DNA from: a virus
DNA length: 21,469 nucleotides
Strand: one strand, 5' to 3'
IMG/VR virus record: IMGVR_UViG_3300025141_000917
Location: 1-21,469 of that record
The notes under the pieces were generated by a model. It ran no database searches and had not been told where the DNA came from. It saw only the letters and a list, made by a program, of their open reading frames with translations. Position numbers and translations under genes: made by a program. Of the stretch, positions 8,284-13,421 are shown piece after piece. Numbering within the stretch: position 1 is the stretch's first letter; each line of letters opens with the position of its first letter.

Positions 8284-8943
8284 ATGCCAAACATGTTCTG
8301 GAGTCAAGCCGCGGCAGAGCCGAAAAGACAACATAGATTTTTATTGGAGCTGCCCCTTTTAGGAGTTGCAACCGGAGGAGTGACGGGCCCATACGAGAAG
8401 TATCTGGCCAAGACGGTTTCCAAGCCTTCTTACACTCTAGGCGTGACAGAGCACAAGTTCCTTGGCAACACTTTTCATTATCCCGGCGCTGTTACGTGGG
8501 ACGAGGTTTCTGCAACACTTGTAAACTCTATTAATCCCAACGGAGATGAGATTCTTTATGAGGCTCTCTATGCATGCGGTTACCATGATCCCGAAGATCT
8601 AGAAGGATTTTTCTTGAACACTGGAAACAGTTCTCCCGGCACCCCCAACAAGGTTAATTCCTTGGGCGCACTCGGAAAGGTTCAGATTACTGAACTAAAC
8701 GGAGAAGGTCTTGAAATCGACCGCTGGGTTCTTAACAATGCTTTCATTACAAGCGTTAAATTTGGTGATTTAGATTATAGTGGTGAAGATTTACTTAATA
8801 TTGATCTGACTTTCAGGTATGATTGGGCTACGTATCAGACATTAACCGACTACGTCCCCGGCATGACTGGAGACGCACTGAGTGATTCTAACAATGATCC
8901 AATGCCTATAGCTCCCCGCGTAGGCGCCAGAGGGTCGTCGTAG
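8284..8943 (+). CDS. 19: Tail tube protein, gp19-like
   Basis: 219 residues (T4 gp19 has 163). The N-terminal RHRFLLELPLL-type strand (residues 15-26) and the block at about residues 133-183, with KVQITELNGEGLEIDRW, ITSVKFGDLDYSGEDL and NIDLTFRYDWA, match the tail-tube family. The latter pattern, 'W.l..afi..v.fg.ldys.edl..i.lt.ryDwA', is characteristic. Hexameric rings stack on the tape measure to make the inner tube through which DNA passes. It follows the sheath gene as in T4 (18 then 19). The spacer of 66 nt carries a promoter-like element and the RBS AGGAG. The C-terminal tail after residue 185 is longer than in T4 and is Gly/Asp/Pro-rich. Confidence 0.9.
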   Translation: MPNMFWSQAAAEPKRQHRFLLELPLLGVATGGVTGPYEKYLAKTVSKPSYTLGVTEHKFLGNTFHYPGAVTWDEVSATLVNSINPNGDEILYEALYACGYHDPEDLEGFFLNTGNSSPGTPNKVNSLGALGKVQITELNGEGLEIDRWVLNNAFITSVKFGDLDYSGEDLLNIDLTFRYDWATYQTLTDYVPGMTGDALSDSNNDPMPIAPRVGARGSS

Positions 8944-8974
8944 GCCGGTTAACCTTATAGAAAGAAGGTGATTT

Positions 8975-9838
8975 GTGAGTAGAAGAAATAACTTGGAGCG
9001 GCTCGGTGCCGCTGATCAAGATGCACCCACCCCTCCAACGGCGGTTACGCAGCAAGATACGAGCGATATATTTTCGTTCATAACTCCCACAGAGTTTGTT
9101 GACCTCCCCAGTAAGGGGTTGCTGTATCCCGAAGGCCACGCCCTATATCAGACATCGACGGTTGAAATTCGTCATATGACGGCAAAGGAAGAGGATATTT
9201 TAACCTCTGAATCGCTGATCAAGAAGGGGGTTGCACTCGATAGACTAGTACACTCGATTGTGGTTGATAAAAAGATAAGACCAGAAGATCTTCTAATTGG
9301 TGACAAAAATGCTCTGCTGGTCGCAGCCCGCGTGACAGGCTTTGGAAACCTTTATGAGACCAAGATCACTTGTCCCTCGTGTACTAAAGTAACAGACGTC
9401 TCCCTCGACCTTGAGGACCTACAAACTAAAGACTTCGAAGAGCTTCCTGAAAATGTTACCACCACAGATCAGGGAACCTATGTAATCACCCTTCCGGATT
9501 TTAATAATTTAGAAGTAGAGGTGCGACTGCTTACGGGACGCCATGAAAAGTTCCTTATGCAGCAGCGCGAGAAGCGCCGGAAGCTTAAGCTGCCGGACAC
9601 TAATATTACAGACCAATTAACGGCTATTATTGCCAGAGTAAATGAAATTACAGATCCAGCTCTCCTAGCTCAGTTTACTGAGCAGGTGCCAACCCGCGTT
9701 TCTCGACAGATTCGTGCTATTTACGAAGACCTCGTTCCGGATTTAGATATGACGTTTGGCTTTGAGTGTGATAATTGTGGCCACGTGGGTAAGGTAGGCA
9801 TGCCGATTTCGGCAGACTTTTTTTGGCCTGACACATAA
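8975..9838 (+). CDS. 26: Baseplate hub / tail assembly chaperone, gp26-like (T4_baseplate family), zero-frame product
   Basis: 287 residues with a GTG start; AAGGTG at 8965-8970 is the RBS. The order of motifs matches the family that includes T4 gp26: LPSKGLLYPEGH at about residue 44, then EIRHMTAKEEDILTSESLIK, LLIGDKNALLVAARV, and a four-cysteine zinc-type motif made of C133/C136 (CPSC) and C265/C268 (CDNC). The ending ADFFWPDT is also familiar for this family. In T4 gp26 is needed for hub assembly; its place directly before the tape measure fits a tail assembly chaperone. The codons for FFW create a run of seven T at 9818-9824, and a start-less reading frame continues in the +1 frame to 10022 (separate entry). 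The GTG start suggests modest expression. Confidence 0.8.
   Translation: MSRRNNLERLGAADQDAPTPPTAVTQQDTSDIFSFITPTEFVDLPSKGLLYPEGHALYQTSTVEIRHMTAKEEDILTSESLIKKGVALDRLVHSIVVDKKIRPEDLLIGDKNALLVAARVTGFGNLYETKITCPSCTKVTDVSLDLEDLQTKDFEELPENVTTTDQGTYVITLPDFNNLEVEVRLLTGRHEKFLMQQREKRRKLKLPDTNITDQLTAIIARVNEITDPALLAQFTEQVPTRVSRQIRAIYEDLVPDLDMTFGFECDNCGHVGKVGMPISADFFWPDT
9801..9814 (+). other. Small hairpin just upstream of the T7 slippery run
   Basis: TGCCG (9801-9805) and CGGCA (9810-9814) can pair as a 5-bp perfect stem with an ATTT loop, ending 3 nt before the T run at 9818. It lies inside the gp26-like coding region. Hairpins behind a slippery site can alter frameshift efficiency; whether this one does is inference. 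Confidence 0.35.
9818..9824 (+). promoter_or_regulatory. Candidate programmed ribosomal frameshift site (+1 or -2)
   Basis: Seven T in a row, read as TTT TTT TGG in the gp26-like frame. A +1 slip lets the tRNA on TTT at 9821-9823 re-pair with TTT at 9822-9824, so the next codon is GGC at 9825. A -2 slip (re-pairing at 9819-9821) reaches the same frame with one more Phe. The frame thus entered has no stop until 10020-10022. A sequencing error in the homopolymer (true T6) would instead make a simple in-frame fusion. Confidence 0.6.
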
Positions 9839-10022
9839 GTATCAAGAAGCGGTTTACGAAGAGCTATTTGTTCTAAAACACCATGGCGGCTGGTCTATTT
9901 TTGAGGCATACAACCTGCCCACTCAGCTCCGCAGATGGTTTGTCCGGCGCTTGATAAAAGAGTTCGACAAGCAGAATGAAGAAATAGAAAAAGCATCCAA
10001 GGCCAACCGGAAAAAAGGTTAG
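9825..10022 (+). CDS. Frameshift extension of the gp26-like chaperone (GT-like tail domain)
   Basis: 65 codons plus stop, in the +1 frame relative to the gp26-like gene. The frame opens after a TAG at 9795 and contains no ATG and no GTG with an RBS, so it can hardly be translated on its own. It nevertheless reads like a real protein: EAVYEELFVLKHHGGWSIFE, then AYNLPTQLRRWFVRRLIKEF and a charged helical end with KASKANRKK. The pattern 'hEe.f.L.yhGgws..eayn.P..lR.wfv..l' resembles small proteins I associate with the gp26 region of T4-like phages. With a +1 slip at 9821-9824 the fused product would be about 348 residues. By analogy with lambda G/GT, the extension would bind tube subunits while the first part binds the tape measure. 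A homopolymer error is the main alternative. Confidence 0.65.
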   Translation, partial: GLTHKYQEAVYEELFVLKHHGGWSIFEAYNLPTQLRRWFVRRLIKEFDKQNEEIEKASKANRKKG

Positions 10023-10030
10023 CTTTATAG

Positions 10031-10054
10031 AAAGCCGCTCGAAGGAGCGGCTTT
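10031..10054 (+). terminator. Rho-independent terminator after the chaperone gene
   Basis: A perfect 10-bp stem, AAAGCCGCTC (10031-10040) with GAGCGGCTTT (10045-10054), has a GAAG loop and is followed by a T-rich tail (TCTTTTATTCT). It begins 8 nt after the stop of the frameshift extension, which supports that stop being the true gene end. Confidence 0.85.
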
Positions 10055-10066
10055 TCTTTTATTCTA

Positions 10067-10073
10067 CTATTTA
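10067..10073 (+). promoter_or_regulatory. Possible late promoter element CTATTTA
   Basis: Third copy of CTATTTA, placed between the terminator at 10031-10054 and the ATG at 10091, the same arrangement as after the capsid gene. It would restart transcription for the tape-measure unit. Inferred from recurrence and position. Confidence 0.3.
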
Positions 10074-10090
10074 TTGATGAGGTATATCCA

Positions 10091-10435
10091 ATGGAAAAAA
10101 TGGTAATAGACTTAACTGTGGGCTCAGCCGCGGCGAACCTAGAGCTAGAGGAACGACGAGGCCGCGGCCGAACGATTACTTCGTTTGCGGCCAATGTACA
10201 ATCTATGCTTACAGACCTTGTTCTGGCCGGCTTTGATACGCCCGTAAATATACGGGGCACTCAGCGACAAATCGATGCATTTTTTAAGGCACTAAAGGGC
10301 GAGAAGCGCTTTATGGATTCTTATATGAAACATGGCCTAGGAGACAGTCGCACCATGCAGACCCAGCACAAGCTTAACCGTTCCGTTGAAGCTTTCGAAA
10401 CCGAAACAGGCTTAAAGTGGCCCTTTAAAAATTAG
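10091..10435 (+). CDS. Small protein of unknown function between chaperone and tape measure
   Basis: 114 residues, not recognised. Charged and probably soluble: no signal peptide or membrane segment. The first half has an RGRGRTITSF stretch after two short acidic runs; the middle, GFDTPVNIRGTQRQIDAFFK, may form an alpha/beta unit, and the rest is helical (RFMDSYMKHGLG, QTQHKLNRSVEAFE), ending WPFKN. The start is supported by TGAGGT at 10078-10083. It lies between a terminator and the tape measure gene, with 10 nt to the latter, so it is likely translated together with it and may act in tail assembly or be a minor tail component. That role is guessed from position only. Confidence 0.7.
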   Translation: MEKMVIDLTVGSAAANLELEERRGRGRTITSFAANVQSMLTDLVLAGFDTPVNIRGTQRQIDAFFKALKGEKRFMDSYMKHGLGDSRTMQTQHKLNRSVEAFETETGLKWPFKN

Positions 10436-10445
10436 GGGTTGAACA

Positions 10446-13421
10446 ATGTCTGTTTCTGACGCACAAGTTGAAAACCTTATAAAATCATTAGAAAACATAG
10501 CGTCCAAAATGGAAGCCGCCACCGGTGACGCTGCCGGAGGCGCCGGAGGCCGCGCTGCTGATGGGGATGTTTATGGGGATCCCACAGACTCCGCAAAACA
10601 GGCCGAAAGAGCCGCCAAAGCATTTAGGGAGCTCAACAAAGACGTCGAAGTTTCTGGCAGCCAGATGACCGAGTACACCAGAATCCTCGCGGATATGCAG
10701 AACGGTGTCGCCGGCGCGGCCGATGAGATGGCAGACTTTCAGTCGACCCTCAAAAAAGGTGGCGCGAAGTTTGATAAAGCATACGACAATATGTTTAAGC
10801 TCACGGGCGCCGCCGATCAGCTAAACAGTGTGCTCCCCACCAGTAAGCAAGAAATGCTAACATTTGGTACATCCCTGATGAAGAGCGTGAAGAGTGGTGA
10901 GATCTTCGTTAGCATGGCGAAGAAGCTCATCGGCACCATGGTCAATCTTGCTGTCCAAACTGACGCAGCCACCGCCGGCTTTATGAGGATGACGGGCGCC
11001 TTTTCTCAAGGCAACAACCTTACTAATGAATATGCTAAAGTAATTGGGGGAGCCGAGCGCCAACTAGCGCACTTAGGAGCTACTGAGGAAGACGTAGGAA
11101 AAGCAATGGGCTCCCTGTATACCGGATACCAGAACTTTACTAATCTTTCGAAGGACCAGAAAAAGGCACTTACTGCCCAAACCGCTGTCATGGACAAGTT
11201 GGGGATCAGCACGGGCCTTACTGCGCAAATATTCGACACCGCCACCAAATCACTGGGGTTCACTGATGATCAGCTTATAGGCCTCACCGAGGGACTTCAT
11301 GCCACCGCACAGAGTCTGGGCAAATCCACGGCACAGGTCGTAGAAGATTTCGGCGTTGTGTCAAAACAGTTGGCATTTTATGGAACAGACGTCGTTGGCG
11401 TGTTCGAAGACATGCAGAAACAATCAAAGGCAACTGGTTTGTCTATGGGCGAGCTTCTTAGCATTTCAGGAGAAGCTTACGACACATTTGATGGTGCCGC
11501 AGAGAAGGTGGGACGACTGAACGCTATCTTGGGTGGCCCGTACTTAAACTCAATTGATATGCTAAACGCATCCGAATCTGAACGCCTCGAAATGATTACA
11601 GCATCAATGGATGCCAGCGGCCAGATGTTCTCTGAATTAGGAAAGTATGAACAGAAAGCAATTGCGTCTGCTCTGGGAGTTGAGGTTGATGTTGCGAGGC
11701 GCATGTTTGGAGAACTCTCTGCCGCAGAAGAGATGGAGATCAGGCAACAAGAAAAGATGGCGGAAACAGCAGCTAAGGCCCAAAAGGTGATAGATAAGCT
11801 GACGAATGCTTTTTATTCTTTGGTTGTCCGCATCGATTGGCTTGTTGGGATCATGGTGAAGCCAATTGATTGGTTCTCCTCATTCGCCGGATGGCTGAAC
11901 GATGGCTCCAGCGCTATGAAGACATTCGCCAAGTGGCTTCTTAACATTGGGGTCCTCTTCGGCGGACTGTGGGGAATGCTCAAGACTGGAGGCAAAGCGC
12001 TTACTAAGGCCGGCAACGCTGCGGGTTCTCTAGGCCGCGGGATGAGAACTGTAGGCAAGGTTGCCACGAATGTTTTTGGCAAAGGATCCCCAGTTGGCAG
12101 TGCCGTCAACACCGTAAGCAGCGTCAGTACTAAGATGGAGAAGGCCGGATCCATGGCAACGAGAATGGGCCGCTTTATGACAAAGGCAGCGAATTCAATC
12201 GCGAAGCCGTTCCGAATTATGGGCAATGCCATACGTCACCCAATTCAGGCCTTTAAAAGACTTACCGATTTGGCCAAATCACTCCCGAAGTTCCTGCGCA
12301 ATATAAAAATGCCCTCACTAAAAATGCCGGCATGGCTGTCTAATCTTTCCAAATTTAAGATGCCTTCTTTTAAAATGCCCTCCTTAAAGATGCCGGGACT
12401 GTCTAAAGCTAGTGCTGCACTCAAGAACGTGGCGATGGGTTTTAATAAAATTAAAGATACCGTGTCCAAATTTAAGATGCCTTCTTTTAAAATGCCCGGC
12501 CTAGGTAAATCCACGAAGCTTCTCAAGGGCTTCGGCAAAGTACTGGGAGGGTTTGCAAAAGTATTGTATCCGTTAGAACTAGCGTGGCACACAATTATGT
12601 CAATTAAGGATAATTTCAACCTTTTTGGTGACTCTCTCAAAGACGGCGAAGGATTTATAGAAAAAATCCTCGGTGGGATCGGGGCTCTTTTAATCACAAT
12701 CGGCGATGCAGCAGCCCGGGCAACGGATTCTCTGGTTAACTTCGGAGTGTGGATTGCCAACATATTTCTCCCAGAAAATTGGGAGCTGCCAGAACTGAAT
12801 CTCGCAGGCATGATACAAGATTCTCTAGCAAATCTAAATTTTGACTTTATTAATGAAACTTTCGCCTATATGGGCCAGATGATGATTGATGGGATTCTTT
12901 CTATAGTTCCTGGCTGGGCGAAAAAGTGGCTTGGAATCGGCGCCGATGCTAAGACAGAGAAAGCAGAGATAGATGCTGTACAGGGCGCCGAAAACCGCCG
13001 AGCCGAGCGCGAAGGTCGCGAGCCCAAGAAAATCACAGCAGAAGATGTCGATGATGTTGTGATCACTGCCAGCGGAAAAGTGATTAAGCCCAATTCGAAA
13101 GACACCATAATTGCTGCAAAGCCCGGCGGCCCTCTTCTTAAGTCCCAAGAGGAACAGCAAGATGGTCTTGGTCAAATGGCGTCTCTGGCGGCAAAAGCCA
13201 TGAATCCACTCGGCAGTCTGTTCTCTGGAGTTACTGGCGCTGTACAGGACCAGATATTTGGTAAGAAGGGGGGCCCCGAAGGTAAAGGCACCGGTGACGG
13301 TACCCCCAATGTTAAGGTAGATGTGAGTGTTAAAATTGGTGAAAAACAATTAACCGACATCATTATAGAGGCGCTATCTTCACCGGAGGCCGGAAAGGCG
13401 ATATCGCCGTTCCTAAACTAG
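10446..13421 (+). CDS. Tail tape measure protein (functional equivalent of gp29)
   Basis: 991 residues, by far the longest helical protein of the tail block, and placed straight after the chaperone region as tape measures are. Features in order: a charged N-terminus with an Ala/Gly-rich linker (about residues 20-45), long alpha-helical stretches rich in Ala, Lys, Gln and Met, a hydrophobic segment LLNIGVLFGGLWGMLK at about 498-513, a basic Gly/Ala/Lys-rich zone, a KMP repeat at residues 621-684, further hydrophobic segments (ILGGIGALLITIG near 741; FAYMGQMMIDGILSIVPGW near 806), and a soluble C-terminal part ending SPEAGKAISPFLN. Its length should set tail length: at the usual 1.5 Angstrom per residue, roughly 150 nm if all residues count, longer than T4. 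No lysozyme or peptidase motif was seen. Homology to T4 gp29 is not visible by eye, so the call rests on architecture and context. Confidence 0.85.
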   Translation: MSVSDAQVENLIKSLENIASKMEAATGDAAGGAGGRAADGDVYGDPTDSAKQAERAAKAFRELNKDVEVSGSQMTEYTRILADMQNGVAGAADEMADFQSTLKKGGAKFDKAYDNMFKLTGAADQLNSVLPTSKQEMLTFGTSLMKSVKSGEIFVSMAKKLIGTMVNLAVQTDAATAGFMRMTGAFSQGNNLTNEYAKVIGGAERQLAHLGATEEDVGKAMGSLYTGYQNFTNLSKDQKKALTAQTAVMDKLGISTGLTAQIFDTATKSLGFTDDQLIGLTEGLHATAQSLGKSTAQVVEDFGVVSKQLAFYGTDVVGVFEDMQKQSKATGLSMGELLSISGEAYDTFDGAAEKVGRLNAILGGPYLNSIDMLNASESERLEMITASMDASGQMFSELGKYEQKAIASALGVEVDVARRMFGELSAAEEMEIRQQEKMAETAAKAQKVIDKLTNAFYSLVVRIDWLVGIMVKPIDWFSSFAGWLNDGSSAMKTFAKWLLNIGVLFGGLWGMLKTGGKALTKAGNAAGSLGRGMRTVGKVATNVFGKGSPVGSAVNTVSSVSTKMEKAGSMATRMGRFMTKAANSIAKPFRIMGNAIRHPIQAFKRLTDLAKSLPKFLRNIKMPSLKMPAWLSNLSKFKMPSFKMPSLKMPGLSKASAALKNVAMGFNKIKDTVSKFKMPSFKMPGLGKSTKLLKGFGKVLGGFAKVLYPLELAWHTIMSIKDNFNLFGDSLKDGEGFIEKILGGIGALLITIGDAAARATDSLVNFGVWIANIFLPENWELPELNLAGMIQDSLANLNFDFINETFAYMGQMMIDGILSIVPGWAKKWLGIGADAKTEKAEIDAVQGAENRRAEREGREPKKITAEDVDDVVITASGKVIKPNSKDTIIAAKPGGPLLKSQEEQQDGLGQMASLAAKAMNPLGSLFSGVTGAVQDQIFGKKGGPEGKGTGDGTPNVKVDVSVKIGEKQLTDIIIEALSSPEAGKAISPFLN
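12348..12497 (+). repeat. Perfect 33-bp direct repeat inside the tape measure gene
   Basis: The 33 bases at 12348-12380 recur without change at 12465-12497. The copies are 117 nt apart, exactly 39 codons, so unequal recombination between them would delete or add 39 codons in frame. They encode the strongest part of the KMP repeat (SKFKMPSFKMP), which has seven KMP units at residues 621-684, partly with a five-residue period (KMPSF, KMPSL, KMPGL). Confidence 0.9.

Follow-up and report, generated by a model that had tools for sequence, protein, structure and literature searches.

How is a reading frame translated that looks protein-coding yet has no usable start codon? The question is raised by the IMG/VR record IMGVR_UViG_3300025141_000917, which we analyzed over positions 1 to 21,469 (21,469 nt, hereafter the window; coordinates are window positions, and all features lie on the + strand). 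Here, a gene resembling gp26 of phage T4 (8975–9838, 287 amino acids in the 0 frame, with a GTG start and a TAA stop at 9836–9838) is overlapped by a second frame, which is closed upstream by a TAG at 9795–9797 and then runs to 10022. A preliminary description, made from the sequence alone, explained this arrangement by a programmed frameshift, either +1 or −2, in a gp26-like chaperone gene. The frame boundaries that it gave, its run of seven T at 9818–9824, and its fusion product of 348 residues all check. We conclude that the gene very probably encodes the tail assembly chaperone (TAC) of a marine T4-like myophage, and that a programmed +1 frameshift would yield both a short form, TAC-N (287 amino acids), and a long form, TAC-NC (8975–10022; 348 amino acids, with the computed junction DFF-GLTHK).

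We collected relatives by scanning IMG/VR with the N-terminal part, the C-terminal part, and three distant relatives, and by adding phage records, for a total of 166 distinct loci. The scan with the N-terminal part matched 581 relatives, so hundreds of viral contigs carry it; the scan with the C-terminal part found 46 IMG/VR loci that encode this extension. In 162 of the 166 distinct loci, the C-terminal part is in the +1 frame relative to the N-terminal part, which is more than chance and supports a programmed frameshift. The +1 loci include Flavobacterium phage immuto, Microcystis phage Mel-JY01, Listeria phage LIS04, Streptococcus phage GXN1, and the jumbo phage LR756508. Rhodothermus phage RM378 is a further case. 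In the records that we saw, the C-terminal part was missing, truncated, or labelled as a separate hypothetical protein.

The extension, which we will call TAC-C (9825–10022), has 65 codons followed by a TAG stop (10020–10022). Among less diverged pairs, changes in the extension fall on codon positions 1, 2, and 3 of the +1 frame in the proportions 22:5:73%, which is similar to the pattern for TAC-N in its own frame (15:12:72). At the level of sequence, this shows that TAC-C evolves as a protein in the +1 frame, and it bears out the protein character noted in the preliminary description. Across 16 divergent members, the residues G, L, Y, G, Y, P, and R are invariant, and the conservation of the extension begins exactly at the slip site. 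A profile of TAC-C also matches just downstream of the gp26-family domain (PF12322) in phages KVP40 (E = 0.0014) and phiM12 (E = 0.01), but it does not match T4 gp51. In 12 of the 16 sequences (in the window, 9825–10019), there are weak matches to the Pfam family DUF6760 (PF20546), the best with E = 7e-5, below the gathering score. DUF6760 may cover small proteins from extracellular contractile injection systems, and these matches would then be a lead for chaperone domains there. A sequence search of the PDB with the C-terminal part gave nothing meaningful, and we did not find the C-terminal part in XacN1 (L007). In the jumbo phage LR756511 (L005, 3181–3424), there is a weak match to the C-terminal part in a frame that differs from that of the N-terminal part, and there is no slip site.

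What is conserved at the slip site itself? In the window, the T7 run (TTT TTT T, the only run of at least seven T) contains the slip tetranucleotide TTT_T (9821–9824), with a Phe codon at 9821–9823 that would occupy the P site and with +1 re-pairing on 9822–9824. The following TGG CCT (9824–9829) provides a Trp codon for the A site in the 0 frame, whereas the codons from 9825 on in the +1 frame are GGC CTG (Gly Leu). Among 117 divergent representatives, the run is T7 in 100, four T in seven, six T in six, and three T in four, always with the same +1 offset; the run is never longer than seven, and the codon register is kept. The last two codons and the next codon are TTT TTT TGG in 97 representatives, TTC TTT TGG in 7, TTT TTT TAC in 3, CTT TTT TGG in 3, and TTT CTT TGG in 2, and the remaining sites are singles with CTA, CGT, AGT, or CAC in the A site (such as TTC TTT CGT, TTT TTT CAC, or TTT CTA). 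The A-site codon is UGG in 109 of 117, and the others are UAC, CGU, AGU, CAC, or CUA. The slip tetranucleotide is TTTT in 110, TTTC in 4, CTTT in 2, and TTTA in 1. That is, 116 of 117 have one of the tetranucleotides (TTTT, TTTC, or CTTT) that allow re-pairing in the P site of the kind seen in RF2 and PA-X. In our first set of 58 representatives, the Phe codon at the slip site was TTT in 57 (the other has CTT), as compared to 77% TTT at the gene's other Phe codons. So, as read from these alignments, the invariant part is the P-site codon and the next base, (T/C)TT_N, mostly TTT_TGG, and the T7 run is dispensable. The preliminary description had suggested checking relatives for both the frame change and a run of six or seven T; the frame change is kept, but the run is not, as T3 and T4 occur. 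Since only the P-site codon and the next base are always kept while the run varies, these data support +1 re-pairing of the peptidyl-tRNA-Phe, and they argue against a −2 shift and against transcriptional slippage.

Just upstream of the slip site is a hairpin, TGCCG-ATTT-CGGCA (9801–9814), whose 3' end is separated by 3 nt from the E-site codon and by 6 nt from the slip codon. In a synonymous-shuffle test, in which codons were swapped for synonyms within 24-nt windows along the gene, the mean folding z at the hairpin was about −2.5 in the window's clade versus −0.18 (sd 0.21) elsewhere in the gene. In a second clade, which contains the Microcystis and Flavobacterium phages, it was about −1.0 versus −0.09 (sd 0.20). 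A strong stem is present in 82% of the window's clade, as compared to 31% of simulated sequences (simulated maximum 44%). We also exchanged codons for the same amino acid between sequences within each alignment column, which keeps the column's composition. The mean energy was −6.42 versus −4.94 (sd 0.17) in the window's clade and −4.05 versus −3.22 (sd 0.22) in the second clade, with 0 of 400 permutations as low in either; some control windows deviate moderately too (one of eight at 0/200), so part of these differences comes from shared ancestry. With the register fixed, covariation was above all of the shuffles (0/500), but all five pairs of the window's hairpin are kept in just 16 of 58 representatives, which is why we relied on the register-free test. 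The sequence and register of the hairpin vary by phage: for instance, CCGCT/AGCGG (L095 and L042), GGCGTT/AACGCC (L103 and L113), CGCATCC/GGATGCG (L004), and GACATCC/GGATGTC (L145). Where the codon at −12 specifies Thr, it is ACG in 40 of 48 cases, while ACG accounts for 16% of Thr codons elsewhere in the gene. Judged by these comparisons, the hairpin next to the E site is selected beyond the needs of the amino acid sequence, clearly in the window's clade and more weakly in the second. Downstream of the slip site, neither the synonymous-shuffle test nor the codon permutation gave a signal of selection for a stimulatory structure, and the folding energy in the window is ordinary. By eye, we saw no Shine-Dalgarno-like (SD-like) element upstream near the slip site in the +1 group.

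A hairpin closely before a T7 run resembles a terminator, so we considered stem-loop-assisted transcriptional slippage, in which RNA polymerase would drop one U (or add two) on the T7 run and the edited mRNA would encode the fusion. The prevalence of T7 among the representatives fits this idea, as does slippage in IS1447, which uses a stem-loop and a run of A, with seven A being sufficient (PMC6211511). However, the 17 of 117 representatives with shorter runs have the same +1 offset, so slippage would need to act on just 3 or 4 T, and the hairpin persists in several of these short-run members (L004, whose stem has 7 bp and whose site is TTT CTA; L228; L219; and L132). Furthermore, the run stops at seven with the codon register intact, and slippage does not require that the tetranucleotide be conserved. 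We consider slippage improbable, although it fares best among the alternatives.

A −2 ribosomal frameshift, as in phage Mu, would reach the same final frame and would give DFFFGLTHK, with one extra Phe. On T7, the P-site tRNA could re-pair two bases back. But at TTC TTT TGG, TTC TTT CGT, and TTT CTT TGG, the −2 codon would be TCT or TTC, which calls for the wrong tRNA, and the offset of the extension is unchanged. Also, an upstream hairpin by the E site was found to stimulate +1 and to attenuate −1 frameshifting on both 70S and 80S ribosomes in vitro, by mimicking an SD duplex (PMC6321510), so a duplex at this position opposes backward shifts. Thus, where the preliminary description allowed either +1 or −2, the site variants favor +1, and −2 seems very unlikely.

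Could TAC-C instead be a separate small gene, translated by coupled or non-canonical initiation? Relatives with their own start, which the preliminary description named as potential counterevidence, do exist. In two loci, L225 (1501–2541) and L231 (1501–2511), the C-terminal part is in another frame and has its own ATG just after the stop of TAC-N. Cyanophages and several other relatives with a −1 arrangement also have an ATG just past the stop, which might serve as a separate start in those phages, and Microcystis phage Mel-JY01 is annotated with two genes. However, L225 and L231 are nested within the +1 clade, where Flavobacterium phage immuto is their neighbor, and they no longer have the slip site (the sequence there is TTC TTG TAT CCT and TTC CTT TGG CCA, respectively), so their arrangement is derived, and a small separate gene has naturally taken the place of the frameshift. 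In the window, there is no ATG, GTG, or TTG between the TAG at 9795–9797 and the slip site; the sole such codon of the +1 frame, a TTG, comes 130 nt after the slip codon and lies within the conserved domain, in agreement with the claim that the frame lacks a usable start. Similarly, the +1 frame has no ATG, GTG, or TTG upstream of the slip site in 62 of 81 loci, and none up to +30 in 60 of 81. A separate gene also does not account for conservation that starts exactly at the slip site. We rate this explanation as very unlikely too, and a shade less likely than the −2 shift.

Finally, although T7 runs are error-prone, an assembly or sequencing error in the homopolymer can be set aside with near certainty, as an independent contig (IMGVR_UViG_3300025118_001063) is identical over 8937–10880, T7 included, and the same frame change is seen in the 162 loci, including several sequenced isolates with differing sites; the worry that the true run has six T (a simple fusion) is likewise not borne out, given this contig and given that the frame change exists with runs of 3, 4, and 6.

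We therefore return to a programmed +1 frameshift, which we propose would operate as follows. Most ribosomes would terminate at the TAA at 9836, giving TAC-N. A fraction would shift by +1 with TTT (9821–9823) in the P site and TGG in the A site. The peptidyl-tRNA-Phe would re-pair on the overlapping TTT at 9822–9824 and reading would restart at GGC, which would add 61 residues relative to the 287-residue form (whose last 4 would not be shared). The hairpin at 9801–9814 can refold behind the ribosome and would probably push it forward, much as the SD:anti-SD duplex does at the +1 site of RF2. If the two forms divide their work as G and GT of phage lambda do, TAC-N would coat the tape measure protein, and TAC-NC, the rare product, would bring in subunits of the tail tube.

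Several observations weigh against this proposal or against the hairpin's role in it. The A-site TGG is a sense codon, whereas shifts of the RF2/PA-X type would call for an A site that is slow or empty (a stop or a hungry codon). Some of the +1 users (L008, L006, and RM378) lack the hairpin, and in the Microcystis/Flavobacterium clade, a strong stem is present in 49% of sequences versus 35% of simulated ones (maximum 53%), which is weak. In the window considered alone, the local fold is no better than the synonymous expectation (p = 0.09). And RNAalifold found no consensus structure, which is expected if the register drifts but does not confirm the hairpin either.

The assignment of TAC-N as a chaperone rests on its family and on its place among the tail genes. 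TAC-N matches PF12322 (T4_baseplate, the gp26 family) with E = 1.1e-15, above the gathering score, and PHROG 150 with E = 2.7e-16. Both T4 gp26 and T4 gp51 match PF12322, and a profile of the fusion matches these two proteins only weakly. PF12322 is present in one copy in each of ten long relatives or records where it was detected, and we saw no second copy like gp51, but the model missed a known copy in four records. An AlphaFold model of TAC-N alone has a pLDDT of 88.7. Its highest-probability match in the PDB is the tail assembly chaperone of HK97 (2ob9), which is not significant (probability 0.44, TM score 0.46 on the target, E = 1.3), and T4-like baseplate hub proteins come first among its viral matches.

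TAC lies between a tail tube gene (8284–8943; PHROG 4542, E = 7.5e-21) and a probable tape measure gene (10446–13421, 991 amino acids), which we identified by its position and size. The same order of tube, TAC, and tape measure is found in L003 and L006, where the tape measure is annotated, and annotations of Flavobacterium phage immuto and Listeria phage LIS04 call the syntenic downstream open reading frame (ORF) a tape measure protein. As previously noted, a hairpin that resembles an intrinsic terminator (10030–10055; −19.2 kcal/mol, z = −4.4) begins 8 nt past the stop codon of TAC-NC. A similar element is present in 20 of 77 relatives and was not found in the control stretch (0). This hairpin separates TAC from the genes that lead up to the tape measure. 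An ORF of 114 residues (10091–10435), with no match in Pfam, separates TAC-NC from the probable tape measure gene. A search of genome contigs found just one relative, L260 (contig WTJH01000026.1 of a metagenome-assembled genome), which is short, is binned as Flavobacteriales, and has the site TTT TTT TGG. It may be a phage contig and would then point to a host from the Bacteroidota, but binning is weak evidence.

How does this locus compare to known systems? Tail-chaperone frameshifting, the TAC genes of T4-like phages, and chaperone products of two lengths in many phages are already known. Vladimirov, Gautam and Davidson (Virology 566:9-15, 2022) are said to have identified gp26 of T4 as TAC-N and gp51 as TAC-NC, encoded by separate genes. 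The window's gene and T4's belong to the same family (PF12322), have an N-terminal part that is common to the short and the long product, and lie beside tail genes, but T4 uses two separate genes while the window has one gene with a predicted +1 shift and an upstream hairpin. Two papers that cite this work (PMC10885494 and PMC12846349) also credit −1 frameshifting at poly-T sites to T4-like TAC genes. The novelty is thus smaller than the preliminary description implied. In the literature that we searched (which did not extend to the full text of Vladimirov 2022), we found no description of a +1 UUU_UGG site in the PF12322 family or of a selected upstream hairpin.

A further comparison is to relatives that would shift in the other direction. 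In S-PM2, P-SSM2, HTVC008M, KVP40, phiM12, Cr30, and phiW-14, the C-terminal part follows PF12322 in the −1 frame. This −1 group comprises L247, L248, L250, L251, L252, L253, L255, and L261–L273 (cyanophages, a pelagiphage, KVP40, phiM12, Cr30, and phiW-14). Where the window's group has its +1 site, most of these phages (Kyanoviridae, KVP40, phiM12, Cr30, and phiW-14) have T TTT TTC or T TTT TTT, and in several members of the cyanophage type, an SD-like GGAGGG lies about 9 nt upstream and a stable hairpin is lacking. The window's extension is in the +1 frame, not the −1 frame, which places it outside of this group. Similarly, a branch in a tree of the N-terminal part separates every +1 user from every −1 user and from T4 (100/100), although some of the end branches are long. 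Poly-T sites at the ends of TAC-N genes recur in unrelated myophages: according to the Adele paper (PMC12846349), the TAC genes of Vandenendeviridae and Andersonviridae use GTTTTT for their −1 shift.

Outside of this family, the arrangement resembles gpG/gpGT of lambda in that the shift comes late in a chaperone gene flanked by the tube and tape measure genes and gives a minor extended form. Lambda differs by its unrelated sequence, its −1 shift at GGGAAAG, and its other stimulator. (Frameshifting in gpG/gpGT was reportedly described by Levin in 1993 and by Xu in 2004, 2013, and 2014.) The +1 site of E. coli RF2 (prfB), CUU_UGA, is similar in its mechanism, with a +1 slip of the P-site tRNA on YUU_U and a duplex just behind the ribosome. 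However, the window has the sense codon UGG instead of a stop codon, a hairpin instead of an SD:anti-SD duplex, and no known feedback. PA-X of influenza A (UUU_CGU) and Ty1 (CUU_AGG_C) also rely on +1 re-pairing from UUU or CUU in the P site, and L008 and L135 have TTT CGT, as in PA-X, but those systems use eukaryotic ribosomes and are not homologous. Shifts by +1 in tail chaperones are known or inferred elsewhere: PMC5009743 cites one in the haloarchaeal myovirus HSTV-2, which we liken to the window by direction and by its being in the tail chaperone of a contractile-tailed virus, not by homology or site.

Within one Pfam family, then, T4-like phages would reach two forms of the chaperone by three routes: two genes in T4, a −1 shift in cyanophages and others, and a +1 shift in the window's group. 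We are evenly divided about a broader proposal: that a large T4-like branch evolved a +1 chaperone shift driven by a hairpin that refolds co-translationally, while its sister branch keeps a −1 shift with an SD-like stimulator at the homologous place, and that this hairpin is the natural counterpart of a duplex so far tested in engineered 70S and 80S systems. The two branches offer a natural experiment on how the direction of a shift depends on elements behind the ribosome, with an SD-like element at a distance for −1 and a hairpin near the E site for +1.
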